Both the position numbers and the translations under genes were made by a program. 57,832 nt of DNA from a virus: positions 1 through 57,832 of IMG/VR virus record IMGVR_UViG_3300047554_001015; one strand, given 5' to 3'. Below the pieces are notes generated by a model. It searched no databases and was not told the DNA's origin. It saw only the letters and a list, made by a program, of their open reading frames with translations. Below are positions 3,631 to 45,839 of the stretch, in pieces. How positions within the stretch are numbered: the first letter of the stretch is position 1; each line of letters begins with the position of its first letter.

Positions 3631-3814
3631 GGTTTTCGCCTCAATGTTATGCCCATCATACCAGGGCAACATCATCAACACATACAGAAAAAATAAAAGG
3701 ATCCCCCAGAGAGAGATCCCACAAGAGGAGAGGAAAGATGAGTTAATTCTACTCCTCTTTTTTTGTGGAATTTTTTCCTAGGGGGTCTTTTTCTTGTGCC
3801 AGTTGGTTGCTGCA

Positions 3815-4130
3815 ACCATTGCTGCTGAATGCTGCCAATTTGCTGAATGATGACAGACTGCTGCCACTGCTGGCAGCATCCGAAACCCGCACTGTGCCTA
3901 CATTACAGCCGACTGCTGCCAATGCTGCCAAAATTTTCGCCGCGCCGATCTCAACTTTTTTCTGCGATTTTCATTCCTCTCTAAAAAAAGTGGCAGCATT
4001 GGCAGCATCCAACCTGAAACCCTTGTCCCGTCTGGCTTTGGGTATGCTGCCACAAGTGCTACAACGAATGCTGCAAACAAAAAGTGGCAGCATTCATTTG
4101 GCAGCATTCAGCAGTCAGCAGCGGTTTAGT
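3815..4130. repeat. TGCTGCCA/TGGCAGCA iteron-like array, copy 1
   Basis: About 315 bp with five exact TGCTGCCA and five exact TGGCAGCA octamers plus degenerate ones. Facing octamers flank an AT-rich core (about 3930-3990). The order of blocks (GACTGCTGCCAATGCTGCCA, then AT-rich, then GTGGCAGCATTGGCAGCA) recurs near 45.6 kb and partly at 27.3 kb, in the same orientation. A 167-codon + frame through it is made by the repeats and is not a gene. This is the content of the 3631-4208 gap. Confidence 0.85.
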
Positions 4131-4208
4131 ACAGGCTTACTCTGTGACAGTCAGCCAACAAAAAAGGAGGGTGTGACCCCTCCCCTGTGGAAACCTCTCA
4201 CCAGCATT

Positions 4209-4856: not shown

Positions 4857-6328
4857 GGCTGCCCCTTCATGCTTAGCAACCCCACATCCTGCACATAGCT
4901 TTTGCCGTCCCGCAATCCTTGGCTAGCGGTTGCAAGCTCAATCCCCAGATAAGCAGCATGGGCGGGGGCGATCGCTGGGTTGTCTAGGCAGATTTCCCGC
5001 ATCAGCTTCAGCGGTTTCGTGCCTTGGTAGCGCCGCACTTCCTCCCCTGTGGGACTGGTCTGCACTATCACCAAATGCCGCCCCTCAACTTCAATCTGGA
5101 AATTTCCCGCAGGGTCGCCATAGGTCGGCTTGCTTTTGCCGTAGTGGTTTGCAATTAGCCGGTCTGCATTCTCCCAGCAGTCATCGTAAATATGGGCGCT
5201 TTGGCTAATCGTGATCAGCGGCCCCATGGTTAGTCGGAACCCGTGGCCCTTGACCCGTTCAAAAATATGGCGCTGCAAAGCTCGTAAACCCATGGCATTG
5301 GAGGGCCACGCGCTAAACATGTCATTGGAGCGAAACGTGGCGGTTAGGCTCAACTCCCCGTCAACCACCCGCAGCCAAATGTGGTTTAAGCAGGGACTGC
5401 CGCCCTTCTCATGGTCCTTCACGTCCCACAGGTTCATCACTGCACTAGCCGCGTCAATTTCCCCCGCCAATTTCTTGACCACCTGGTCAATTTGGTCCAC
5501 CCCAAACCAGGACCGCAGCCGCTGGCCATAGGTATACTTGACCCCCTCCTGATACGGGGCATCGGCCAAAATCTGGGGAATGTAATTACTGATTGCTTCC
5601 CGGTCTACCGGCAAATAATTTGGTTCCGGGAAATAGCCTTGCTCTGGCTCATCCGTCACCACTGCCACCAAATCAATCAACTCTTGCCAGTTGCCATCGT
5701 ATCCTGTGGGGCGGATGGTCCCGGTGGTTTTGATGCGGTGGACAATTTTTACCCAGGTCTCAGCAATGGTGCGGCCCTCAATGCGGTGACCATAGCGGGG
5801 GCCGGGTAGCACCGTTGGCAGAACTTCATGGGGCGGGAAGGCTTGGGGCTGCCCCCACGGGATTGGGCTTTGGGGCCACAGTGGGGCAGACTCCACAAGG
5901 GTATCCAATGACTCGTAAAGGTGCGGAGTTACCGAGTCCCGAATGGTTTGGAGCCAGAATTCGGGAATCTCGATGTCAATAAAGGCCGGGGCGGTACCCT
6001 TCACGACCCAGCACTCCACCCCCGTGTCGGTCTGCCCCTGCTCAAACCCCCAGTAAAAAAAATCCCACAACCGAAAACAGGACTGGGAATTGCGGTCTTC
6101 CTTGGTAGCGCTGAGGATGATTAGATCCCGAACTTGGGGGTTGGCTAGGAGATTTCTAATCAGCGTAGAGATGCCCCGTGCAGGGCTGTAAAGCTGGCCG
6201 ATCGCGGCGTAGGTTGTGGGGTCTAGCTTGCGGGCTACGGCTTCCTTGACGGTCCATCCTGTCACGATGACGGGGGCACCTGTGCCCAATATGATTTGAC
6301 CAGCTTTTTGAATCGGTTTATAGGTCAT
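4850..6328 (-). CDS. Thymidylate synthase with N-terminal DUF4346-like domain
   Basis: Product of 492 residues, longer than bacterial ThyA (about 260). The first 110 residues (GQIILGTGAPVIVTGW, LIRNLLANPQVRDLIIL) resemble the MtrA-like DUF4346 domain found in archaeal and cyanobacterial synthases. The C-terminal part has the catalytic Cys at about 313 (SPCLNH), then TFRSNDMFSAWPSNAMGL (about 331-348) with the phosphate-binding Arg-Ser, the Asp and the base-reading Asn. The retained Asn fits dUMP rather than dCMP. It would make dTMP, or a hydroxymethyl variant, for phage DNA. It works with the dCMP deaminase at 40875. Confidence 0.75.
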   Translation of the reverse strand: MTYKPIQKAGQIILGTGAPVIVTGWTVKEAVARKLDPTTYAAIGQLYSPARGISTLIRNLLANPQVRDLIILSATKEDRNSQSCFRLWDFFYWGFEQGQTDTGVECWVVKGTAPAFIDIEIPEFWLQTIRDSVTPHLYESLDTLVESAPLWPQSPIPWGQPQAFPPHEVLPTVLPGPRYGHRIEGRTIAETWVKIVHRIKTTGTIRPTGYDGNWQELIDLVAVVTDEPEQGYFPEPNYLPVDREAISNYIPQILADAPYQEGVKYTYGQRLRSWFGVDQIDQVVKKLAGEIDAASAVMNLWDVKDHEKGGSPCLNHIWLRVVDGELSLTATFRSNDMFSAWPSNAMGLRALQRHIFERVKGHGFRLTMGPLITISQSAHIYDDCWENADRLIANHYGKSKPTYGDPAGNFQIEVEGRHLVIVQTSPTGEEVRRYQGTKPLKLMREICLDNPAIAPAHAAYLGIELATASQGLRDGKSYVQDVGLLSMKGQPC

Positions 6329-6423
6329 GGCTTGTGAGTTCGTTTACTGGGATTATTTTACGGCAAAATAAAACCCGCAATGGCTTGGGGCGATCGCGGG
6401 GTGGGGTTGGGGAGCAGGGAAGA

Positions 6424-6750
6424 TCAGAGATATGCTCTTATTTCTTCTGGGGCACGTCCCCAGTCGATATCTTTGCCGTCTGCCTCCCCATCATAAAAGA
6501 GGTCGAGGTCTTGGATGGCATTCAACCAATCCCGAAGATCAGGAGTTATGGGGAGGGTGTGGCAATCAATGCCACAATTTATCAGAAGCAGTTCCGCATC
6601 CTCCACTTTGTCCACGGTTTTGGGTCGGGTGGTGGTTTCCGTGCGGACTTTCGCGCCGCTATCCCACTGCTTTCCTCTGTAGAAGGCGGAAGAGGGAAGC
6701 GCGAGTTCGCTCTTGGTTTCTATTTTTTGAAGCCGGATATCCTTGATCAT
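6424..6750 (-). CDS. Hypothetical protein (108 aa)
   Basis: ATG at 6750 follows AAACGAGGATGAAACC. The basic N-terminal third (MIKDIRLQKIETKSEL) is followed by an acidic C-terminal half rich in Asp. No family is recognised. It is one of three consecutive small leftward genes between 6.4 and 7.4 kb. The 6329-6423 interval upstream of the next operon shows only one HIP1 site. Confidence 0.65.
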   Translation of the reverse strand: MIKDIRLQKIETKSELALPSSAFYRGKQWDSGAKVRTETTTRPKTVDKVEDAELLLINCGIDCHTLPITPDLRDWLNAIQDLDLFYDGEADGKDIDWGRAPEEIRAYL

Positions 6751-7665: not shown

Positions 7666-8790
7666 TTAACTCCTGACTTGAACCGGCATCACCAGGTACA
7701 GCACTCGGTCAGCCCCCAGCGGCTCAATAATGACGGGGGCCGTGGCATTACTCAGGCTGATCTTGGTTTCGGCAGAGCCTGAGATTTTGAGACCATCCTG
7801 CAAGTATTTGCAGTTAAAGGCAATCTCCAAGTTGCCGCCTTGAATTTGGGCATCTAGCGCCTCTCTGCCGCTGCCCACGTCCACTGTTTCCACAGAGAGT
7901 AGAACTGATTGGCTTGTAACATCAATGCCCAGCTTGACCACGTTGTTTTTGTGGTCTGCCAGGGTTGCAACCCGGTCGATCGCCGCTATCAGTTGCTTGC
8001 GGTCTGCCACAACCTCAAGGGCAAAACGCTGTGGAATCAGTTGGTTGTAATTGGGGTATTGCCCATCCAGAGTCCGGGTTGTCAGGCACTGGTCACCCCA
8101 ATGGAAGAGCAGTTGACCCTGATCAAAATAGAGGGCCACGGTGTCATCTTCCTTGGATGGTGCCAGCAACTTCTCCAAGTCCCGCATGGCACGGGCTGGA
8201 ATGGTTACCTCAAAATCCCAGGGTTCTGGCTCAGCATCATCCGGTTGCGCCTCAAACTGATACCGGGCAAGCCGATGGCCATCCGTGGCGGCAAACTCCA
8301 AAGACTGCCCCCGTGCTGTCAGATGCACCCCGGTCAGCACTTGCTTGGTCTCATCGGTGCTGCAAATGCTTGCCGTGGATCGGATGCCAGTAATCAGGGC
8401 ACTAGCAGGAATTTCCACAGCCTCACCCTGTGGGGTTGGCAGGTCGGGATACTCCTCTGAGGGCATCCCCATAATTTTGTAACGCCCCCTGCTAGTGGCA
8501 ATCACCATTTGCTCCTGAAGGTCAAACAGGATCGCCTCATTGGGGAGACGGGTCACAATCTCGCTAAGGGTGCGGGCGGGAAGGGTGATGGTGCCCGGTG
8601 TTTCCACAGTGGCGGCAACGGTGACCCGAATGCCGATAGATAGGTCAAATGCGGTTAGGGTGATGCGGCTGGAATCAGCCACGATCAAAACATTAGAGAG
8701 GATGGGGTGACCTGTGGATCGTGATGAGATTGCCCGTCCTACCATCCCAAGGGCGGCTGCAAACTCATCCTGTGAGCATTGGAATTTCAT
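7666..8790 (-). CDS. dnaN: DNA polymerase III beta subunit (sliding clamp)
   Basis: Product of 374 residues, full family length, with all three clamp domains. MKFQCSQDEFAAALGMVGRA begins domain 1, TDGHRLARY in the second domain is the family signature, and the protein ends VLYLVMPVQVRS, close to the usual YLVMPMR end. It should encircle DNA and hold a polymerase, but no phage polymerase III is seen, so it would recruit host enzymes. The start abuts the stop of the scaffold-like gene (TAA then ATG). Confidence 0.95.
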   Translation of the reverse strand: MKFQCSQDEFAAALGMVGRAISSRSTGHPILSNVLIVADSSRITLTAFDLSIGIRVTVAATVETPGTITLPARTLSEIVTRLPNEAILFDLQEQMVIATSRGRYKIMGMPSEEYPDLPTPQGEAVEIPASALITGIRSTASICSTDETKQVLTGVHLTARGQSLEFAATDGHRLARYQFEAQPDDAEPEPWDFEVTIPARAMRDLEKLLAPSKEDDTVALYFDQGQLLFHWGDQCLTTRTLDGQYPNYNQLIPQRFALEVVADRKQLIAAIDRVATLADHKNNVVKLGIDVTSQSVLLSVETVDVGSGREALDAQIQGGNLEIAFNCKYLQDGLKISGSAETKISLSNATAPVIIEPLGADRVLYLVMPVQVRS

Positions 8791-9588: not shown

Positions 9589-9631
9589 GGTCGGTTTTAA
9601 GTTTACCGCAAAAATAGATTTAGATAATGTG

Positions 9632-9660
9632 TTGACAGCGTGGCAGCAATATCCTATATT
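9632..9660 (+). promoter_or_regulatory. Sigma-70 promoter of the dispersed family
   Basis: TTGACA (9632-9637), 17-bp spacer containing GCGTGGCAGCA, TATATT (9655-9660), followed by AGAAAACGAGACC. Confidence 0.85.
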
Positions 9661-9700
9661 GGATTCAGTTCAGAAAACGAGACCTACAGAGGACAAGCAA

Positions 9701-9973: not shown

Positions 9974-10825
9974 CTAGGGCTTGCGTGCAGACTCATGCAG
10001 GATCTTGGGCACAGCATTTTCCCACAAAACCTTATGGTGTAGCCGTTTATGGTTCTGGCCCAACTGAGTAATTCTGACGGCAGATGGGCAATACATGATG
10101 GTGTAAAAGCTTTTGACGAATGTACCAGCGTCTAGATACATATCAGTCAGCCCGCCCGGATTTGACTGCGTTTGTAGCTGAGTGATTCTTGCATCATGGA
10201 CAGACAAAAACAGCCCACCCTTGTGCCCTAGTGCAACATAGGTGTTCACATCATCATTCATCCTTCCAAGGAACTGAAAAGGCTTGTCTGTGGAACAGAA
10301 AAAAGTCTGCATTACTTTTCTTTTGCATGATTTCCTTGTTCCACTGCCACCATAGCCACCCATAAAATCTCCCCCTTGAGCCATAGCAACAGAGAGGAAT
10401 GGTGTCTTTTCCAAAAAGTCAACGAAGGCATTAAATATCTCATCAATACTCAAGAGTCGTTTTTGTTTAATCACTCCTTCGGCATTGCAAGTAAAAGAAA
10501 ACTCTGTGTAGTCATCATCCAGTTCCACGAAATATTTGTAGCCAAGTTTTTTGGCAATAGCAAAGCACTCATTTCTGGCATAAACCACAGATGCCCGACT
10601 GTCTCGGTTGTCCCCTGCGTCGGTGACTTTAGCCGCATCAGCTTTGCAAAACTGAATAACCTTGTCGCCGTAGTTTTTGCGATATTGCTCCACTGTGGCA
10701 TCTTCATCATCCACGACAATAAACCATGGTCCTGTGTAGCCTGAGTTCCTCAATGATTGCAAGGTTCTAATGTTGTCTGGCCGACCGTGACTGAGAATGA
10801 GAACACAAAAATCTTTCCTAATCAT
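9974..10825 (-). CDS. TAGT-like glycosyltransferase (TET/JBP-associated type)
   Basis: Product of 283 residues from the ATG at 10825, which overlaps the end of the ParB-like gene. The N-terminus has VLILSHGRPDNIRTLQSL, GYTGPWFIVVDDED and a YGDKVIQFCKAD block; YFVELDDDY (about 109-117) is a probable nucleotide-sugar and metal site. These are the signature blocks of the phage glycosyltransferases proposed to modify hydroxymethylated DNA bases. No TET/JBP oxygenase is seen here. A protein or capsid target is also possible. Family call is good, substrate unknown. Confidence 0.65.
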   Translation of the reverse strand: MIRKDFCVLILSHGRPDNIRTLQSLRNSGYTGPWFIVVDDEDATVEQYRKNYGDKVIQFCKADAAKVTDAGDNRDSRASVVYARNECFAIAKKLGYKYFVELDDDYTEFSFTCNAEGVIKQKRLLSIDEIFNAFVDFLEKTPFLSVAMAQGGDFMGGYGGSGTRKSCKRKVMQTFFCSTDKPFQFLGRMNDDVNTYVALGHKGGLFLSVHDARITQLQTQSNPGGLTDMYLDAGTFVKSFYTIMYCPSAVRITQLGQNHKRLHHKVLWENAVPKILHESARKP

Positions 10826-11623
10826 CACCGTAGTCCTTGGAATACTGAGACCGAATCGACTCACAAAGCATTACATAGTTTTTCTCGATAGCTTGGTCAA
10901 AGTCAATAATGACCAGTGCAGAGTCTTCCATAAGTCTTTGGATCTCAGGGGATGCGCCTGCATAATATTCTGCGATCTTGCCAAAGTTAAAAACAGTATG
11001 GCGGTATGCTGCCATCTTGAGAAATTCCACAACATGGGGGTCATCAATGTCAGCATCAGAAATCCTCTTTATCATTTCCTTTGTCTTGTGTGGGTCGTAA
11101 AGGTCTGAGATGTCTGGATTCTCCCCCGTTGGCGTGTAAATTGGTGCCTCAATCTTGCGGGTATAAACTTCCTCATCCCCGTCATCATCAATGTCCCCCT
11201 CCATGTCCCAACCATCAAGCCCCTCTATTTCCTCATCAGTAAACAGCCAGGAAATATCAATCTCATCCGCCACAACCTTCAGAGCGTCAATGTCCCAATT
11301 AAGGCCAAGTTCAGAGGCTCGGTTATCAGTAACCGCCAGCTTTTTGGCCTTGGGGTCTGTGGATAAATCTAGGTCAGTCCGTTGTACCACAACAACGCGA
11401 TCGCCCGTGGTCTCAACGATGACCACATCCTCAATCCCAGCATCTAACGCGGCTGCGGCGGTTTTGTTGCCAGCGATGATGTAGCCGTTTTTGTCCACAA
11501 GGATGGACCGACCGGCCCCCATTCTGCCAGGGATTGCTTGATAACATTGCGCCCCCGCTCAGTCCCTAGGTTGAGGTTGTTTGGGTCTTGCTGTAGGTCA
11601 GAGAGTTTTAGTTTTTTAGCCAT
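10818..11623 (-). CDS. ParB-like (Spo0J/ParB N-terminal fold) protein with apparent -1 frameshift
   Basis: Two frames join into one ParB-like protein. From ATG 11623 the first frame gives KLKLSDLQQDPNN and ends SLAEW; the second, open from 11522, continues GAGRSILVDKNGYIIAGNKT, the classic ParB motif. Joining them needs a -1 shift in the five-G run (11516-11520). This could be programmed slippage, a sequencing or assembly error, or recent inactivation. The C-terminal part is acidic and helical and ends SKDYGDD. Such ParB-like proteins often accompany DNA-modification genes, and this one is coupled to the TAGT-like gene. Confidence 0.65.
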
Positions 11624-11637
11624 GGTTTCAATTTAGG

Positions 11638-12018
11638 TTAACCCCGCATCAATATTCCCATCCCGGATCGCCCTCCCGTTGTGGGACCGGTAATCCCTAG
11701 TAGTGCCCGGATGCGGTTTTTGATTCGGGCCATTTCAGAGGTGAAGCCGGTGGTACGTCTCCCCCCCGGTTCCCACTCCAGAACGTCAGCTTTGATTAGT
11801 GCCGCGTTGACACTACCTTGCTCAGTAGTGAGGGCTGCATCAATGGTGTCCAGGGTATCAAGGTCGGCTTGGATTTCAGGCACCAATCCCGGCAACTGGG
11901 TTTCAGTCCGCACCATTTGCGCCCTTACGAATTCCTCACCCTGGGAAGTGAAGGGCTGAATCTCCAGATATTTAATAACCCGGATCAGGTCGTTTTCCAC
12001 AAATAAGGTAAAGGCCAT
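11638..12018 (-). CDS. Virion-associated protein downstream of portal (126 aa)
   Basis: Starts directly at the portal stop, so it belongs to the packaging operon. The helical product begins MAFTLFVENDLIRVIKYLEI and ends in a Gly/Arg-rich tail. I do not recognise a family; by position it could be a head-completion or connector protein. Confidence 0.65.
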   Translation of the reverse strand: MAFTLFVENDLIRVIKYLEIQPFTSQGEEFVRAQMVRTETQLPGLVPEIQADLDTLDTIDAALTTEQGSVNAALIKADVLEWEPGGRRTTGFTSEMARIKNRIRALLGITGPTTGGRSGMGILMRG

Positions 12019-23376: not shown

Positions 23377-23588
23377 AAACCGTTTTGGAAACCGTTTTGG
23401 CTTCAACGGTTTTGGCCCTCCCTGAAATAGTTTTACCAGCATAAACCATTTTTTGCAACGGTTTCGATCCAAATTTGCCGCAAAAAACCAGCAAAGTATT
23501 GTCAGAACCGTTTCAAAACCATTACAGTGAAACGGTTTCACCCTCGAAAACCGTTGAGGACTATGGCCAAAAAACCCGAAAACCGTTT
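23377..23588. promoter_or_regulatory. Operator array of eight AAAC(C/G)GTTT sites
   Basis: Near-palindromic AAAC-S-GTTT sites at 23377-23385, 23389-23397, about 23404-23412, 23456-23464, 23505-23513, 23530-23538, 23548-23556 and 23580-23588. Three differ by one base. They fill the divergent gap between 23341 and 23563, and the last lies inside the first codons of the + gene. The arrangement suggests cooperative binding by one of the flanking proteins, as operator or centromere. Confidence 0.8.
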
Positions 23589-23811
23589 GGCGATCTCGCC
23601 GCTCTCTGAGATGTACCAGGATCTACTGAGGATCGATGCCCACATCGCTGGCAACACGATCGCCGCTCAAGCCCGATCGCTCCTCTGTGCCAAGCTGCTA
23701 CAGCGATCGGATTTCCGCCAAGAGGCACTGAAGCACCTCGCCCAAAAGCGGGGTATCAGCCCTGACGAATTGAAGGCCCAAATCCTGGCAGGGGACACTG
23801 CCCCACAATAA
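23563..23811 (+). CDS. Ribbon-helix-helix-like DNA-binding protein (82 aa)
   Basis: ATG at 23563 follows GAGGACT. The segment NRLAISPLSEMYQDLLRIDA followed by NTIAAQARSLLCAKLL has the strand-helix-helix spacing of CopG/Arc proteins. The C-terminal helices (ALKHLAQKRGISPDELKAQI) could mediate oligomers. It is a prime candidate to bind the AAAC(C/G)GTTT array that covers its own promoter and start. It is a single gene with a terminator behind it. Confidence 0.6.
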   Translation: MAKKPENRLAISPLSEMYQDLLRIDAHIAGNTIAAQARSLLCAKLLQRSDFRQEALKHLAQKRGISPDELKAQILAGDTAPQ

Positions 23812-24093: not shown

Positions 24094-24238
24094 GGTCCCC
24101 CGTCAGCATTTGGATCTGCCGTTTGGCACGGGCGATCGCCCGCCGATAGGTTTTGATCTCATCTTGATAAACCCGGATCAGGTCTTGCTTGGAGACGGGC
24201 CGCTGGCTTGCCGACTCATTACGGCTGCTGATTCTCAT
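24077..24238 (-). CDS. Small basic protein (53 aa)
   Basis: ATG at 24238 overlaps the XRE gene stop (ATGA). The product begins MRISSRNESASQRPVSKQDL and has a basic helix (KTYRRAIARAKRQIQML). No family is recognised. Coupling on both sides supports it as a real gene. Confidence 0.6.
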   Translation of the reverse strand: MRISSRNESASQRPVSKQDLIRVYQDEIKTYRRAIARAKRQIQMLTGDHGASH

Positions 24239-24435
24239 GGCAACAGTGCAGTCATGAGCTGATCCGCAGTCCAGTTAATCTGCTTCACGGCATCCCGCAA
24301 GGTTTTGAGTTGGGAACTATTGAGGGCGTAGTCATTTAGCCCTCGCTCCCACCGCCAGACGGTAACCCTCTGAACTCCAAGCAGGTTGGCAAATGCTTTC
24401 TGGTTTAGGCCCAATGCCTCTCTAATTTTTTTCAT
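24235..24435 (-). CDS. XRE-family helix-turn-helix regulator (66 aa)
   Basis: Almost the whole protein is one HTH domain: IREALGLNQKAFANLLGVQR then TVWRWERGLNDYALNSSQL. It probably represses its own or the divergent primase promoter. It lies 178 bases from the primase start, with TTGTTGT and ACAACAA inverted segments (about 24436-24483) between them that could be its operator. Confidence 0.8.
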   Translation of the reverse strand: MKKIREALGLNQKAFANLLGVQRVTVWRWERGLNDYALNSSQLKTLRDAVKQINWTADQLMTALLP

Positions 24436-24613: not shown

Positions 24614-27600
24614 ATGAATAACCAATACGATGCCCGTATGTCTGACAATATTAACCAATTTTGGCCCTTGCTGCAATGGCTGCGGGATTGTGGACTCTCT
24701 CCCCTGCCAATTGCCCCCGCCCAACCCGCCGATCAGTTTCCACAGGTTGGGGCGGATGGCCAGCCCCGCACAGACAAAGACGGGAACCCCCTACCCCTGT
24801 TTACGGGCAAAAATCCCAGCTATCTGGACAAAAACGGGACTCCCCGAATTATCCGCCACAAAAACTACCAGGACTGCCTTCCCACAGATGAGGAGATGGC
24901 GGAATGGTGGGCAAACCCTGCCAACGGCTTTGGCTATCTCCACACCAGCCTAGCCCCCAATCTACGGACCCTGGACCTGGACCGCAAGAATTTTGACAGC
25001 CAGTCTGACTGTGATGCCGTGATGAGCAGCATCGCATCAGCTTTCCCTGAGGCATGGATCGATGGAACCATGCGGGGGGGTTACCACATGGCTTTTGCTT
25101 TTGAGGAGCCGCCCAGCTTCACGAATTTCGGCATGGGGGACATTGCCCACGTTGGGGAACTGCTAGGGCCGGGTCGGTTTGTGGCGATCGCTCCCACACC
25201 GGGTTACAGCCGGATTCAAGATGGGGGGTTTGCCCCCACCACTGTGGAATCCCTGGGAATCCACCCCCGCAAAAAAGCTACCCCCACAACCCCCGCACCT
25301 CTCTCCATGCCCCAGCAATCTTTTGGCTCAATCCCCCTGGAAATGCTAGGCAACCCTGAGAGCTTGGAGATCCTCAACGGGGCAAACCCAGCGGGCGATC
25401 GCTCAGCTTCTCTGGCCACCGCAATCCAGGAATGGATCGGTTGGGCAAACTGGTGTGATTCCAATGGTGTGGGATACCGGGGCACTCCTCAAGAATTGGC
25501 GATCGCCGCTGGCTCCACACTAGATATAGATGCGGATCGAGTAACCCGGATTCTGGCCACAATTGACCCGGCCAAATGCACCCCCGCTGCTCAGCATCTG
25601 GGCGGGGATGATGCTTGCTGGAAACGAGTCGCCAAACTCGATCGCCGCTACCAATCCAAAGCCTACCCCCAATCCCCCGCCCCATCCAATCAGAAGCCCC
25701 AACCCAAGCCCGTTGCCGCCCCCATCACCGCTGATGCTGCGGCTGAATTGCAGGATGCTGCCAAGATTCTGGAAACCCTAGCCTGCGACCAAATCAATAT
25801 CCACGAACTGTTACCCGCTGATCTTGCCCAGCCCCTAGAACGGGCCGCAGCCGATTTGAATATCGGGATTGTGGGATTGCTGGCCCCCCTGCTCAGTGCT
25901 AGCGCCTCATTAATAGGAGGCTCCACAATCAGCCCTAAGCTGAGTTGGACCGAGCAACCAACCATCTGGAGTGCTGTAGTTGCTGCATCCGGCCAAGGGA
26001 AAAGCCCCGGACAGCGGGCAATCTTGGGGCCATTGACTAAGTTAGATGAAATCGCCGGTCAGCAGTATGACCAAGACTTGCTGCAATACCAGCGCGACAA
26101 GGCCGAATGGGAACGGCTAGCCAAAGCCCACAAAAAGGAATCTGATGAGGAATTGCCGCCCCCGCCTGAGCCGCCGAACTATCGCCACTATTTAATGCGG
26201 GAAGCCACAATCGAGACGTTGCTGGCAGAACACTGCAAAAACTCAGGCAGTCGCGGGATCCTGTTTCTGAAAGAGGAGTTGGCCGGTTTGGTTCTGGGGA
26301 TGAACCAATACAAATCGGCTGGCAACGATCGCCAAACCTGGTTAGACCTAGCCGATGGCAGCTCAATCAAGCGGGCTACCAAGGCCGGAGTCAATCGGCG
26401 GGTTGACTCCAACATCTGTGTGTTTGGGGGGATTCAGCCCAAAGTGCTGGACAAGATGGCTGACTCTGAGGATAGCGATGGATTGTGGGCACGGTTCCTG
26501 TGGTTTACCCTTCCCTACTGCCCCGCTCAGTGGAACGAGAATGGGGGGTCCCTGGAGGGGCTACTACTGAATCTCTACCAAACCCTGGCAAAGTTTGCGC
26601 CGCAGAATTACACCCTAGAGCCGGAAGCCAAAGAACTGTTCGTGACCTACTGGACAGAGCAGCGCAACCGCGCCCTCAACTGCCCTAGCGGGATTGCCAA
26701 CGCCTACAGCAAATCCCCCCGCCACGTCCTAGCCGTGGCTCTGAACCTTTACTTGCTAGCCGCAGCCACAACCCCCGAACTGGGAACCCCACAGCCTGAG
26801 ATCCCCCTGTGGTGTATCTCAGCAGCAATCAAGGTGGTGAACCATTCCCTCAGTCAAATCTGCCGCCGCAATGCTGACACCGCTGTGGAACTGACCCCAC
26901 AGCAACGCAAGTTGATCGAATTATCAATTGACTGGCAACCCGTGACGGGGGGCTGGATTAAAACCCGTGATGCCATCTCCCGGATTCGCTATGGGGGCCA
27001 ACGGGTCAGCAGTGATGATGTCAAGGCACTGTTTGAGGAAATGGTTGCTGCTGGCCTAGGGGAAATCAAGACCACTGCACGGGGGGCGATCGAGTGGCGC
27101 TACAACGTCTTGACTGGCACAATCTCACAGAATGGGGATGCTGCAATGGGTGCTGTTAATGCTGCATTGAATGCTGCCAAACCGCTGAGCGATGACGGGA
27201 TGCTGCCACGGTTGGCAGCATCCACGATCCAGGCGGGGCAAGGGTTTGAGCCGACAAAAGCCCCAGTGCTGCCAAATTCTCAAAAAAAGAATGACGAAAA
27301 AAAATCCGCTGAAAACGGCGCAGCAAAAAAAGTGGCAGCATTGGCAGCAGTCAGCCAGAACCTAGGCGCAGAGCGGGTTGTGGATGCTGCCACGAATGCT
27401 GCCACGAATGCTGCAACTGAAAAATGGCAGCATTCAGAGGGGACAGCCACAGCAACAGCAACTGTCACACGACAGCACCCCACAACTCAATCCGCCGTAG
27501 GCAAAAAAGTTCAGTATTTAGGATCTGATTCCAAGATTTTGAAGTGGGGGACTGAGTTCACAGTTACAGGATTTATCGGCCTAGATTGTGGAATTACTCA

Positions 27601-27661
27601 CCCCCAATGGTCTGACCCCAAGGCTGTGAATCCCTATGACCTGGAAATCATTGATGGTTGA
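24614..27661 (+). CDS. Primase-polymerase / DUF3987 replication protein
   Basis: Product of 1015 residues. The N-terminal 230 residues look like a prim-pol domain: GLSPLPIAP, WWANPANGFGYLH, LRTLDLDRKN (about 116-125) with the acidic metal site, and LLGPGRFVAIAPTPGYSRI. Residues about 400-740 form a DUF3987 helicase-like ATPase with AASGQGKSPG (about 455-464). The last 170 residues are low-complexity, Ala/Asn-rich and are the translation of the second repeat array (GAVNAALNAAK, DAATNAATNAATEK). It should prime and unwind phage DNA. A second ATG at 24638 is possible. Confidence 0.85.
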   Translation: MNNQYDARMSDNINQFWPLLQWLRDCGLSPLPIAPAQPADQFPQVGADGQPRTDKDGNPLPLFTGKNPSYLDKNGTPRIIRHKNYQDCLPTDEEMAEWWANPANGFGYLHTSLAPNLRTLDLDRKNFDSQSDCDAVMSSIASAFPEAWIDGTMRGGYHMAFAFEEPPSFTNFGMGDIAHVGELLGPGRFVAIAPTPGYSRIQDGGFAPTTVESLGIHPRKKATPTTPAPLSMPQQSFGSIPLEMLGNPESLEILNGANPAGDRSASLATAIQEWIGWANWCDSNGVGYRGTPQELAIAAGSTLDIDADRVTRILATIDPAKCTPAAQHLGGDDACWKRVAKLDRRYQSKAYPQSPAPSNQKPQPKPVAAPITADAAAELQDAAKILETLACDQINIHELLPADLAQPLERAAADLNIGIVGLLAPLLSASASLIGGSTISPKLSWTEQPTIWSAVVAASGQGKSPGQRAILGPLTKLDEIAGQQYDQDLLQYQRDKAEWERLAKAHKKESDEELPPPPEPPNYRHYLMREATIETLLAEHCKNSGSRGILFLKEELAGLVLGMNQYKSAGNDRQTWLDLADGSSIKRATKAGVNRRVDSNICVFGGIQPKVLDKMADSEDSDGLWARFLWFTLPYCPAQWNENGGSLEGLLLNLYQTLAKFAPQNYTLEPEAKELFVTYWTEQRNRALNCPSGIANAYSKSPRHVLAVALNLYLLAAATTPELGTPQPEIPLWCISAAIKVVNHSLSQICRRNADTAVELTPQQRKLIELSIDWQPVTGGWIKTRDAISRIRYGGQRVSSDDVKALFEEMVAAGLGEIKTTARGAIEWRYNVLTGTISQNGDAAMGAVNAALNAAKPLSDDGMLPRLAASTIQAGQGFEPTKAPVLPNSQKKNDEKKSAENGAAKKVAALAAVSQNLGAERVVDAATNAATNAATEKWQHSEGTATATATVTRQHPTTQSAVGKKVQYLGSDSKILKWGTEFTVTGFIGLDCGITHPQWSDPKAVNPYDLEIIDG
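27125..27440. repeat. TGCTGCCA/TGGCAGCA iteron-like array, copy 2, inside the primase gene
   Basis: Five exact TGCTGCCA and four TGGCAGCA octamers, with an A-rich core at about 27280-27330. It is in the same orientation as copies 1 and 3. The frame is kept, so the array is translated as Ala/Asn-rich linker. Location in the replication gene recalls the iterons inside lambda O. Confidence 0.8.
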
Positions 27662-33150: not shown

Positions 33151-33375
33151 CTAGGCGACTCGCCGCAGTTCAGCAACGCCCCATTTGGTCCGCCATCCCA
33201 TGGAACCGAGCATGGCGGTGTCTTCGACGTACTCCACGGCCCCGCCCGTGGTTTGCGCCCAGCGGTTGAAGCGATCCCAGACCCCATTCATAAATTGATC
33301 CTCTTTGCGGCTGAAGAACTTTTGGCGGGGGGTGCCATCAACGTAGACTTGGTACTGAATCTTGGTAGCGGTCAT
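33151..33375 (-). CDS. Hypothetical protein (74 aa)
   Basis: ATG at 33375 follows GGAGGCTAGACAA. The basic, aromatic-rich product (MTATKIQYQVYVDGTPRQKF...) has no recognised family. First gene after the promoter at 33420-33449, with AAAACGAAG in its leader. Confidence 0.7.
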   Translation of the reverse strand: MTATKIQYQVYVDGTPRQKFFSRKEDQFMNGVWDRFNRWAQTTGGAVEYVEDTAMLGSMGWRTKWGVAELRRVA

Positions 33376-33419
33376 TTGTCTAGCCTCCTGTGGGGCGCTT
33401 CGTTTTCTTTGATGTAATC

Positions 33420-33449
33420 ATAGTAAGCTGTGCGGTGCTATGCTGTCAA
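33420..33449 (-). promoter_or_regulatory. Sigma-70 promoter of the dispersed family
   Basis: TTGACA (33444-33449), 18-bp spacer, TACTAT (33420-33425) on the minus strand. The sequence after the -10 (GATTACATCAAAGAAAACGA) is the same as at 43056-43085. Confidence 0.85.
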
Positions 33450-33464
33450 CACATTGGGCAAAAA

Positions 33465-33623
33465 TTATTCAGGCTGGACCAACTCAGTGCGAAACCAACG
33501 TGTGGGGCCACGGTCTAATTCCACAAGGGTGAGGGCAGCATAGGGATCCGGCTGGATTGCCCGGACTGTGCCTTTGCGGCCTGAGGGAAGTTTGCATCGG
33601 GTGCCAATAGGGAGGGGGGTCAT
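33465..33623 (-). CDS. Small SH3/KOW-like protein (52 aa)
   Basis: The frame MTPLPIGTRCKLPSGRKGTV, then a beta segment LTLVELDRGPTRWFRTELV, resembles the GTRCRVVTGTHFGKV...LVELE segment of the divergent 33662 gene. No ribosome site is evident, so it is only moderately supported. Its stop lies just before the promoter at 33420-33449. Confidence 0.45.
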   Translation of the reverse strand: MTPLPIGTRCKLPSGRKGTVRAIQPDPYAALTLVELDRGPTRWFRTELVQPE

Positions 33624-40074: not shown

Positions 40075-40108
40075 TTAAATGTCTCAGAAAGATTGCTTTG
40101 ATTCTAGC

Positions 40109-40456
40109 CTAATCCCATCCCATATCATCCGCACAGAGCAGGGCAGAATCATCCACCCGTGAAGGTGCGGCCCCAGCCCTGACCATTTTATTGATGCACC
40201 GCCACAGTCGGACGGTTTTGATATTGCGGCCCACCCCCTGGGATTGGGGCTGAGTTTCCGCCATGATTAAGCCAGTTGCCCGCAGTTGCTGCCAGGGGTT
40301 CAGTTCTTGCCAGTCTGCCACGGTCGCAGTAGGGGGCAAGGGTGTAAGGGGCGGGGGAGATGTGATCAGACTGTAGGCAGACCAGGCAAGGAAAAGCCCC
40401 GCCATGGTTTTGATAATGCGATCGGCAATTTGTTCTTGGGTTGGGGGAGTTTTCAT
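40109..40456 (-). CDS. Hypothetical protein with one membrane segment (115 aa)
   Basis: MAGLFLAWSAYSLITS near the N-terminus is a likely membrane segment or signal, followed by a Pro-rich linker and a basic domain with three Cys. No family is recognised. It overlaps the nuclease gene by ATGA. With no lysis gene found, a lysis role cannot be excluded. Confidence 0.6.
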   Translation of the reverse strand: MKTPPTQEQIADRIIKTMAGLFLAWSAYSLITSPPPLTPLPPTATVADWQELNPWQQLRATGLIMAETQPQSQGVGRNIKTVRLWRCINKMVRAGAAPSRVDDSALLCADDMGWD

Positions 40457-40848
40457 TTTGCTAATAATTTGGTTCTCGCCTCAATAATAGCGGCAACTTG
40501 CCTTAAACTCTCCTCAGTAATCTGCTGTGGGGCCAGAAAAACCGTTAGCCACCCCTGAAGGGCAGCAAGCCTCGATTTTTCGTAATCTCTCAGCAGTCCC
40601 GGCCCGGAGCCATGCCCCCCCGGCCTACGCCTGCCATCTTTGCCCCTTACCCCATAGACCGCACCATTGATCTCGATCGCGGTTTGGGATGGGAAGTGGG
40701 CAAAGTCAAATCTAAAACGGCGTTTGGGGATGAGCTTAACCTGGGTTACCAAATCCACAGAGGGAAATAGATCGACCCATTGCTGAGCAAAATCCATTTC
40801 GGCGCTACTATCTATCTCCGATGCGTCAATCTCTTTGTTTCTCGCCAT
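40453..40848 (-). CDS. PD-(D/E)XK-type endonuclease (probable)
   Basis: Product of 131 residues. The core RRFRFDFAHFPSQTAIEING has the D...E-x-N catalytic pattern, followed by a Gly/Arg-rich GKDGRRRPGGHGSG loop and LLRDYEKSRLAALQGWLTVF, typical of small phage nucleases that resolve or trim DNA. Start at 40848, three codons in from the first ATG. Confidence 0.65.
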   Translation of the reverse strand: MARNKEIDASEIDSSAEMDFAQQWVDLFPSVDLVTQVKLIPKRRFRFDFAHFPSQTAIEINGAVYGVRGKDGRRRPGGHGSGPGLLRDYEKSRLAALQGWLTVFLAPQQITEESLRQVAAIIEARTKLLAK

Positions 40849-41337: not shown

Positions 41338-41727
41338 TTAGTCGTAGCAGGCTCTCCAGCGGAAGCCATCATGGGTGAATCGCCGACCGTTCAAATACCG
41401 GGCTACATCATCCCCGGTCAGGTTCATCTCGACAATTCGCTGGACAAGGCCCACAGCAGCCTTGCCTTGTAGGCGAAGATAAATTTGCTCACGGTAACCA
41501 TCAACCCGTGCCGTACGCAGGGCGTGGGACAACCCGTAGATGGCGGTGCGCACGTCCTGCGCACCTTCGCGGGTCCGGACGGTTTCCATTTGCCGGAAGG
41601 CTTTAACAATGATGTCCTCTAGCGTCATCTTTGAACTGATCCGCTTAATCCCTAGCAGGGCGCGGATTTCACCGGGGACATGGGAGGAAGGGGCGTAAAG
41701 ACTGGGGGTTTGTAGTTGGCTGGTCAT
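41338..41727 (-). CDS. Hypothetical protein, antisense single-gene cassette (129 aa)
   Basis: Helical basic protein (MTSQLQTPSLYAPSSHVPGE...) with no recognised family. It reads against the late tail genes on either side and carries its own promoter (41775-41803), AAACGAAACG leader and terminator (41305-41328). This is the plan of a transferable cassette. Confidence 0.75.
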   Translation of the reverse strand: MTSQLQTPSLYAPSSHVPGEIRALLGIKRISSKMTLEDIIVKAFRQMETVRTREGAQDVRTAIYGLSHALRTARVDGYREQIYLRLQGKAAVGLVQRIVEMNLTGDDVARYLNGRRFTHDGFRWRACYD

Positions 41728-41774
41728 CGTCTTGCTCCTTGCCCGGTGGGCGTTTCGTTTCCTGGACTGAGTTA

Positions 41775-41803
41775 AATATAAGGGAATACTGCTACGTTGT
41801 CAA
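41775..41803 (-). promoter_or_regulatory. Sigma-70 promoter of the dispersed family
   Basis: TTGACA (41798-41803), 17-bp spacer, TATATT (41775-41780) on the minus strand, nearly identical to 1778-1806. Confidence 0.85.
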
Positions 41804-41827
41804 CACATTGGACTAAATTAATTTCGG

Positions 41828-41836
41828 GGGAACCCT
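41828..41836 (+). promoter_or_regulatory. GGGAAC(C/T)CT late motif
   Basis: GGGAACCCT followed by AACCAAAAG, 20 bases before the ATG at 41857, back to back with the early promoter of the antisense cassette. Confidence 0.6.
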
Positions 41837-41856
41837 AACCAAAAGACTCCCCCGCT

Positions 41857-42582: not shown

Positions 42583-43008
42583 TTAGGCTACGCCGTAGTA
42601 GGCTTGAAGCGCCTTGTCCGCAACTCCGTCAACTTCGCGACGGGTGACCTTGCCGGGGATTGGGTTGAAACCAGGATCCGCCCACATTTGCTTTTCAAGG
42701 ACTTCAACTTCGCCATCATTTAGCCACTGGCGGATTGCCTTGCTGCGGGCTTTTTGCTGCTTTTTGTCGGCCAGTGTCGGGAACATCTGGTTCCGGAATC
42801 GGGCATAGTCGTCATCAGACAGATTTTTGCGGTAGAAGTCACAGACCGCTTTCTGGTCTTCGGGCTTAGTTAACTCCAGAAGGACATCGCAGAAATTGCA
42901 CCAGGTCTTAGGAGCCTTGAATTTTTTCTCTTCACCAACGATGGAGGTCAGAATGATGGTGCGGGCAGTCATCTTGACGATTCCAGACTTGTCTTTTTTG
43001 GTGGCCAT
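42583..43008 (-). CDS. Hypothetical protein, antisense single-gene cassette (141 aa)
   Basis: Basic, helical protein (MATKKDKSGIVKMTARTIIL...) with a WCNFCDVLLEL block. The C-terminal third (DGEVEVLEKQMWADPGFNPI) is acidic then Pro-rich. No family is recognised. It lies between U and X on the opposite strand with its own promoter and terminator. Confidence 0.75.
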   Translation of the reverse strand: MATKKDKSGIVKMTARTIILTSIVGEEKKFKAPKTWCNFCDVLLELTKPEDQKAVCDFYRKNLSDDDYARFRNQMFPTLADKKQQKARSKAIRQWLNDGEVEVLEKQMWADPGFNPIPGKVTRREVDGVADKALQAYYGVA

Positions 43009-43055
43009 TGCTTTGTTCCTTGCCCTTGGGGCGTTTCGTTTTCTTTGATGTAATC

Positions 43056-43085
43056 ATAGTAAATCACATGCTGCTACGCTGTCAA
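43056..43085 (-). promoter_or_regulatory. Sigma-70 promoter of the dispersed family
   Basis: TTGACA (43080-43085), 18-bp spacer, TACTAT (43056-43061) on the minus strand, followed by the AGAAAACGAAACG leader. Confidence 0.85.
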
Positions 43086-43105
43086 CACATTTGGCAAAGT
43101 TTTTT

Positions 43106-44437: not shown

Positions 44438-44788
44438 TTAGGCACTGACCGCCAGTTTCCGGCTCAGGGTTTGGTGCAATTGCTTCATGGCCAGCCATTC
44501 CCTGTACGCCTTATACTCTGGACTTCTGAGGTCAACGCAGCCTAGTACCGGAGACCCTGCCCACTCAGATGGGAAATCTTTCTGACTGGAATCCATCCAG
44601 CCTTTCAGTTGCTTGAGATACTCAGACAACAGCCCATCGGTTGCCTTATAGGATCCCCAGCACTGGTTTAGCGTGTGCTGGTGAAACTCAACTTTGTAGC
44701 CGTGGCGGTTCAGAATCCCGCCTTTGTAAGAGACATTCTTTTCGCAGATGGGGCAGCGGGCTTTGATTGGGATGGTGGTAGCGGTCAT
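44438..44788 (-). CDS. Zinc-ribbon-like protein, antisense single-gene cassette (116 aa)
   Basis: The N-terminal KARCPICEKNVSYKGGILNR and HGYKVEFHQHTLNQCW give a Cys2 plus His pattern that could hold zinc. The rest is helical. It lies between D and V on the opposite strand with its own promoter (44835-44863) and terminator. Function unknown. Confidence 0.75.
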   Translation of the reverse strand: MTATTIPIKARCPICEKNVSYKGGILNRHGYKVEFHQHTLNQCWGSYKATDGLLSEYLKQLKGWMDSSQKDFPSEWAGSPVLGCVDLRSPEYKAYREWLAMKQLHQTLSRKLAVSA

Positions 44789-44834
44789 GATTGGTCTCTC
44801 TTGTTTTGTGGGCTTCGTTTTCTGAACTGATTTA

Positions 44835-44863
44835 ATAGTAAAACAAAGCTGCTACGCTGTCAA
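44835..44863 (-). promoter_or_regulatory. Sigma-70 promoter of the dispersed family
   Basis: TTGACA (44858-44863), 17-bp spacer, TACTAT (44835-44840) on the minus strand, followed by AGAAAACGAAG. Confidence 0.85.
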
Positions 44864-44888
44864 CACATTACAGAAAAATAATTCCACA

Positions 44889-44897
44889 GGGAACTCT
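44889..44897 (+). promoter_or_regulatory. GGGAAC(C/T)CT late motif upstream of V
   Basis: GGGAACTCT followed by CACCCAAAATT, 22 bases before the GTG at 44920. Confidence 0.6.
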
Positions 44898-44919
44898 CAC
44901 CCAAAATTGAGGGCTAGTT

Positions 44920-45450
44920 GTGGAAAACCGGGCAAAACAGAGCAACCAAGATCAAGGCCAGTGCAATCTCTATTTCGGCTATGTCACCGCTGTGGATGAG
45001 GCCATGGGACGGGCACGGGTGAGGGTGGATGACTTGGATGGTGTGGAGTCCTATTGGCTGAATATTTTGCAGGGGCGGGTTGCCCAAGACCAAGAAGCAT
45101 ACTGGCTAGACCCAGGGGATTTTGTGGCACTGCTGAGCGATGAGAAACTTGAGGCGGGGGTCATCCTGGGTTGTCTCTACTCAGAAAAAAATCCACCCCC
45201 CATTACCACAAGGGATAAATATTACCGACGATTTTCTGATGGCAGCTTTGTGGAGTTCGATCGCTCCACAGGGGTGCTGAGCATGGAGGTGACCGACCGC
45301 ATCAATATCACCGCTCCCAACGGCTTGCATATCACCAACGATTCCACAGAGTCATCCATTAATGGCAAGGCGATCGCCGTTCTTGGAGCCATGGACAATG
45401 ACAGCGAAACCAATGGCCCCGATGCCCTGGTTACTAGCGGTCAGATGTGA
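44920..45450 (+). CDS. Baseplate assembly / spike protein V (P2 gpV-like)
   Basis: Product of 176 residues from a GTG. FGYVTAVDEAMGRARVRVDD and a WLDPGDFVALLSDE block form the OB-fold, GVILGCLYSEKNPPP follows, and the C-terminal repeat-like FSDGSFVEFDRSTGVLSMEV region would form the beta-helical spike. It punctures the outer membrane. The third repeat array starts at its 3' end. Confidence 0.85.
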   Translation: MENRAKQSNQDQGQCNLYFGYVTAVDEAMGRARVRVDDLDGVESYWLNILQGRVAQDQEAYWLDPGDFVALLSDEKLEAGVILGCLYSEKNPPPITTRDKYYRRFSDGSFVEFDRSTGVLSMEVTDRINITAPNGLHITNDSTESSINGKAIAVLGAMDNDSETNGPDALVTSGQM

Positions 45451-45760
45451 CAGTTGATTGCTGACAGATTTATTCTGACTGCTGCCAAACTGCTGAATGC
45501 TGACAGTTTGCTGCAAACAGTGGCAGCATTCAAAAGCCTTGCTCTGTCTAGGTTGTAGCTGACTGCTGCCAATGCTGCCAAATTTTTCGCGATCGCGTTT
45601 CAACTTTCATTTTTCCTCTCCCTCAGAAAAGTGGCAGCATTCAAGCATTCAGCCTAGAACCTTTGTGGGGCAGGGCTTTGAGTATGCTGCCAAGCCTGTC
45701 AGCATTAGTGCAGCATTCAGAATTTGGCAGCATTCAGGTGGCAGCACTCAGCAATGACCC
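45440..45760. repeat. TGCTGCCA/TGGCAGCA iteron-like array, copy 3
   Basis: Four exact TGCTGCCA and four TGGCAGCA octamers with AT-rich core (about 45580-45630), aligning block by block with copy 1 (both have GACTGCTGCCAATGCTGCCA before the core and TATGCTGCCA after it). It fills most of the 45451-45839 gap, which holds no gene. Confidence 0.85.
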
Positions 45761-45789: not shown

Positions 45790-45810
45790 AAAAAAGCCCC
45801 TTTGTGGGGC
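45790..45810 (-). terminator. Rho-independent terminator, minus strand
   Basis: GCCCC/GGGGC hairpin followed on the minus strand by T, ending the leftward 47.2-45.8 kb operon. Confidence 0.75.
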
Positions 45811-45839
45811 TGGTCTTTAGCGTCAGTCGGCTGACCTTA

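Follow-up and report, generated by a model that had tools for sequence, protein, structure and literature searches.

Three iteron arrays of common layout in a tailed-phage genome, one of them inside a primase-helicase gene, as candidate replication origins

The sequence analysed here (the window) is the IMG/VR virus record IMGVR_UViG_3300047554_001015, positions 1 to 57,832, and represents most of the genome of a contractile-tailed phage. Its genes include those for sheath, tail, baseplate, portal, TerL, scaffold, capsid and head morphogenesis proteins, as well as RecT, SSB and a sigma factor. With 28 copies, the HIP1 octamer of cyanobacteria, GCGATCGC, is abundant in the window; relatives of its rep gene are found in cyanobacteria, and the portal protein places its nearest phage relatives among the cyanophages, at ~30% identity. 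A search of INPHARED at the DNA level with the first 20 kb of the window returned no relatives.

The octamer TGCTGCCA/TGGCAGCA is present in the window in 33 exact copies on both strands, compared with an expectation of 4.3 (sd 2.2, maximum 11; 100 dinucleotide shuffles). Twenty-seven of these are gathered in three blocks of about 280-300 bp each, with 10 in copy 1 (3830-4106, +), nine in copy 2 (27172-27432, +), and eight in copy 3 (45480-45746, +), while the other six are all isolated. When 33 sites were placed randomly in 2000 trials, no more than five ever fell within 320 bp. These counts bear out the initial annotation, which had reported 27 exact octamers in both orientations and only isolated ones elsewhere, and the octamer count that it proposed as a check, run here over the window, reveals a spread that is not even. 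The claim that all blocks share one orientation also holds, as the octamers follow nearly the same order and offsets in copy 1 (0, 29, 41, 84, 93, 161, 170, 215, 255, 269), copy 2 (0, 29, 41, 95, 161, 170, 213, 225, 253), and copy 3 (0, 41, 84, 93, 152, 205, 245, 259). The iteron consensus of the three blocks is about AATGCTGCCA, and copy 1 carries near-match octamers besides its 10 exact ones.

Each of the three arrays comprises both halves and a core. In copy 1, outer and inner blocks surround a 60-bp core that lies between facing inner iteron pairs (3931-3990, +; 62% AT), and the corresponding cores of copies 2 and 3 are located at 27275-27332 (+; 66% AT) and 45581-45631 (+; 61% AT). An AT-rich core is therefore present as described initially, but only moderately so, at 61-66% AT between the inner iterons compared with 46-52% for the whole arrays. 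The array centres are 23.3 and 18.3 kb apart, consistent with the 16-23 kb given earlier for a circular map. However, the third distance of 16.2 kb applies only if the molecule is circular, which is unproven because the contig lacks a terminal overlap and is classed as linear in IMG/VR.

Beyond what the initial annotation described, copy 2 is located within the rep gene (24614-27661, +), where it occupies codons 853-938. The encoded protein of 1015 amino acids contains a PrimPol-like domain (aa ~19-350), a DUF3987 helicase domain (aa 423-747; E=4e-37; Walker A SGQGKSP), a winged helix (aa ~760-832), a predicted disordered linker, and a short C-terminal tail. DUF3987 is the sole Pfam match at E values up to 1. 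The PrimPol domain of this Rep has no Pfam hit of its own and is assigned by alignment of the N-terminus with cyanobacterial plasmid proteins annotated as bifunctional DNA primase/polymerase; Rep relatives score the Prim-Pol Pfam model PF09250. Among the papers listed by literature searches, none joined DUF3987 with iterons, and no paper joining it with cyanobacteria, plasmid and replication was found. Divergent from rep is a gene for an XRE-type HTH protein (24235-24435, -; HTH_3, E=3e-7), which is a candidate regulator of rep.

The conserved domain of ~75 residues C-terminal to the Rep helicase is encoded at 26891-27109 (+; aa 760-832) and is the proposed iteron-binding domain. An AlphaFold model of this domain alone adopts a winged helix with a core pLDDT of ~90, and structure comparison matches it to numerous domains of this fold (E 0.007 in Foldseek, Z up to 10 in VIA). 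P4 alpha is absent among the fold matches listed, which excludes nothing, and sequence searches of PDB chains with Rep and with its winged helix returned no relative. The model of the whole protein is poor (pLDDT 49), and it is in this model that the segment encoded by the array is predicted to be disordered.

Copies 1 and 3 are non-coding. Terminator-like hairpins, likewise absent from the initial annotation, flank copy 1 on both sides (3698-3720, - and 4163-4186, -), whereas copy 3 has one on its right (45795-45811, -) and is enclosed by two ORFs that converge on it, with ends at 45450 (+) and 45840 (-). No promoter-like sites were found around copy 1 between 2500 and 5000. Elsewhere in the window, TGTGTTGACA, with a -35-like TTGACA, recurs together with an AT-rich -10-like region in a dispersed family of 60-100-bp intergenic elements (663-778, 1773-1827, 9597-9688, 33363-33470, 41716-41844, 42991-43105, and 44776-44905). 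There are nine exact TGTGTTGACA copies in the window, and 12 with one mismatch allowed compared with 3.4 expected; the family looks like one of phage promoters. Rfam and tRNA scans gave no match. A search for copy 1 in 386 cyanobacterial genomes yielded only two matches, of 29-34 bp. Two matches to the pattern of facing inner octamers in IMG/VR were judged to be chance occurrences, being single octamers, one within a small ORF and the other within a tape-measure gene.

In agreement with the initial annotation, copies 1 and 3 align with each other, at 72% identity over 319 bp. For each pairwise comparison among the three copies, iteron columns were defined as the octamer columns of the third copy. 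In all three comparisons these columns are 84-89% identical, compared with 47-58% for the other columns. Because the octamers were kept while the spacers diverged, comparison of the sequences suggests that all three sites are probably functional. Within rep, the octamers of copy 2 fall in all three reading frames and in both orientations, which indicates that the constraint acts on the DNA.

To place these arrays among related replicons, 24 loci with related reps (the window plus 23 cyanobacterial plasmid, MAG, and phage loci) were scanned for clusters of any 8-mer. At 12 of the 23 related loci, 6-15 copies of one 8-mer occur inside rep, at 0.66-0.93 of the gene length, compared with a maximum of 1-4 copies in simulated sequences. 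The octamer varies by lineage (AGTCCACT, AAGTAGAC, CAGTAGTC, TTAGGGAA, and others), as would be the case if every Rep recognised an iteron of its own. The 12 loci include a phage contig, L014, on which genes for sheath and integrase are present; besides the in-rep TTAGGGAA array of L014, another 8-mer, GACCTCAA, forms a cluster of 8 copies there (11373-11760). For viral DUF3987 loci that are more distantly related (50 scanned), the share with a single array near rep is about one quarter, usually at a separation of 100-400 bp, and the cultured cyanophage S-LBS1 carries an 11-copy array immediately downstream of its PrimPol gene. Roughly half of the cyanobacterial rep loci, and the majority of the distant viral ones, gave no array in the 8-mer scan.

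Several loci show variations on this theme. In a Rhizonema MAG (L017), a symmetric in-gene array of 15 CCTGTGAC copies (6262-6587) accompanies a rep with D5_N/Pox_D5 rather than DUF3987, so the layout may reach beyond DUF3987. Plasmid pMIC7113.02 (L036) has an in-gene CTTTGTGA array plus a different 11-copy cluster, ACACGTTA, at 40086-40463, ~300 bp upstream of rep. The viral contig L094 carries 20 regular 18-bp repeats, TCCATCGA, upstream of rep (8122-8543), which are unlike the iteron arrays.

Across 21 arrays, the iterons form four blocks in the order outer-inner-inner-outer, often mirrored around the core. Neighbouring iterons of the same orientation are mostly 9-12 bp apart, and the gaps between outer and inner blocks cluster near 34, 44, 55, and 66 bp, with 11.0 bp as their best period (R=0.69). 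None of 2000 random sets was equally strong, a P value that is indicative only, since the set contains some arrays related to each other as well as sites with one mismatch. Mirror symmetry is significant (P<0.05) in nine of 16 arrays, among them copies 1 and 3; of the three copies, only copy 2 misses significance (P=0.12). The related arrays of L032 and L036 have direct repeats only and no mirror.

The three-copy form is known from one genome. A further 76 loci of at least 8 kb were scanned, many of them incomplete and some overlapping, and in none does the iteron array recur elsewhere in the locus; the only other double cluster is that of L032, where it sits at the two termini of a transposon-like unit. 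The 42-kb contig G003, which shares 14.4 kb with G004 at 99.97% identity, stops short of the G004 array and contains no other GTTCAGCA cluster. L038, a relative by TerL (50% identity), was considered as a test of copies 1 and 3 and set aside, as it has no other above-threshold gene in common with the window. As none of the other replicons examined has a second array of its iteron, what copies 1 and 3 do is judged from a single genome.

We consider it likely that each block is an iteron array for the phage's own primase-helicase Rep, with copy 2 as the ancestral origin and copies 1 and 3 as its duplicates. Judged by sequence, copy 2 is best read as the primary origin of the replicon, embedded in its initiator gene, because many plasmids and phages have a single array of matching position and layout, within their DUF3987 rep or adjacent to it. 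In the proposed mechanism, the winged helix behind the helicase domain would dock Rep on the iterons, Rep would assemble on both mirrored half-arrays, and it would then melt and enter the AT-richer core. Perhaps two opposed Rep rings are formed in this process, from which we infer that bidirectional forks could arise. Copies 1 and 3 would have arisen by duplication of the copy within rep, and the chances are about even that they are additional origins of the same replicon. GC skew, suggested initially as a check on the origins, was no help in this regard, as it tracks gene orientation without marking three origins. The fullest version of the proposal, that a tailed phage fires from three complete, spaced iteron origins after an in-gene origin was copied to two sheltered intergenic sites, is conceivable but falls somewhat short of an even chance.

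It is also possible, though rather unlikely, that copy 2 is the only origin and that copies 1 and 3 are auxiliary sites bound by Rep at a distance, through looping or titration, which activate the origin or limit copy number in the manner of P4 crr or plasmid inc iterons. The P4 genome offers a precedent, with its ori and distant crr both bound by the same initiator, and complete iteron sets that lie distant from rep and are conserved despite spacer drift would suit such a role. However, copies 1 and 3 retain the inner pairs and core, which are unneeded for titration, and copy control matters less to a phage of lytic type. The same conservation of octamers over spacers, seen in all three comparisons, argues against copies 1 and 3 being by-products, whether a duplicate array kept by chance or a decoy against satellites. 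The window does have other small dispersed repeats, but we regard this explanation as improbable.

The initial annotation had offered multi-site origins, centromeres, and silencing or bridging sites as options. Comparative evidence favours the first of these, whereas the centromere and silencing options gained no positive support. Dispersed inverted repeats could serve as centromere or partition sites like those of phage N15, and the gene at 10818-11522 gives the lone ParB-like PHROG hit, to a family named ParB-like partition protein. However, this gene has no ParB Pfam hit and its region also matches a methyltransferase PHROG, a context that is a common setting for ParB-like nuclease domains. 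No ParA/ParM-type motor gene was found among the ORFs scanned, many of which have no family match, and in relatives the arrays of this layout follow rep rather than par genes. Moreover, seven copies of a different sequence, AAACCGTT, cluster on both strands at 23377-23587, immediately upstream of a small ORF without a Pfam hit (23563-23811; 82 aa). Such a position is the expected one for an operator or a partition site, and the cluster and the ORF are candidates for such a site and the protein that binds it. A centromere role is very improbable. Still less credible is a role in transcription control or nucleoid silencing. The intergenic location of copies 1 and 3 would fit, but copy 3 is enclosed by the ends of convergent genes, copy 2 is intragenic, and copy 1 sits between terminator-like hairpins in a region that lacks promoter-like sites.

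If the reading of the blocks as Rep-dependent arrays is correct, DUF3987, a domain of 'unknown function', becomes tied to an origin of recognisable layout, with four iteron blocks, gaps clustering at roughly one helical turn, and frequent mirroring. In cyanobacteria this origin array would be written inside the rep gene itself, and its layout could provide a practical route to origins, and hence to vectors, for many cyanobacterial plasmids and phages. Three firing origins, if true, could shorten replication time or permit staged initiation.

The phage Rep shares several features with self-loading initiators and their replicons. Primase and AAA+/SF3-like helicase are combined in one element-encoded protein, a DNA-binding domain predicted from its fold lies C-terminal to the helicase, and short iterons occur in or next to the initiator gene (copy 2 and 12 of 23 relatives). 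The initiator helicases of SaPI and SCCmec elements are self-loading, carry a DNA-binding domain at the C-terminus, and bind iterons, seemingly as a pair of hexamers (PMC7581432). The origins of SaPI Rep and Cch2 resemble the present case in their element-encoded initiator helicase, in the dsDNA-binding domain behind the helicase, and in the short iterons near the gene. The phage differs from these elements in that its DUF3987 helicase is fused to PrimPol, its origin lies inside rep, and it is a full-size tailed phage with three arrays. P4 alpha likewise joins primase, helicase, and winged-helix origin binding in one protein, with more than one binding region per genome. Its winged helix binds origin repeats and its primase is of the TOPRIM type (PMC4234260). 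By contrast, the N-terminus of the phage Rep is PrimPol-type by alignment rather than TOPRIM, and the phage has three copies of the same internal layout, one of them within the initiator gene. By analogy, copy 2 would work in a manner that resembles the SaPI and P4 origins.

Other systems share single aspects of this arrangement. In lambdoid phages, ori lies inside gene O, which codes for the O protein, so that the coding sequence of an initiator contains an iteron origin; however, O is not a helicase, the array is one-sided, and the origin is single. Phage N15 has dispersed SopB centromere sites, which are likewise inverted repeats spread over a phage genome, but they are small and bound by a partition protein, whereas the present arrays are large, origin-like, and tied to rep. 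The cyanobacterial plasmid proteins CyRepA1 and CyRepA2 also serve cyanobacterial replicons with one Rep that has primase- and helicase-type domains. These domains are DUF3854 and a DEXD helicase, in papers where iterons are unmentioned (PMC9978351, PMC10079941), whereas the phage Rep consists of PrimPol and DUF3987, with only DUF3987 found in Pfam. Phage T4 offers a precedent for a single phage with several origins, which operate by an R-loop mechanism (PMC3016281) different from that proposed for the arrays in the window. The initial annotation knew of no described phage element of this form. This goes too far for a single array, to which SaPI, P4, and other iteron origins come close, but the three complete arrays in one genome are without counterpart in the loci examined, and they raise the question of whether one phage uses several equal initiator-dependent origins at once.
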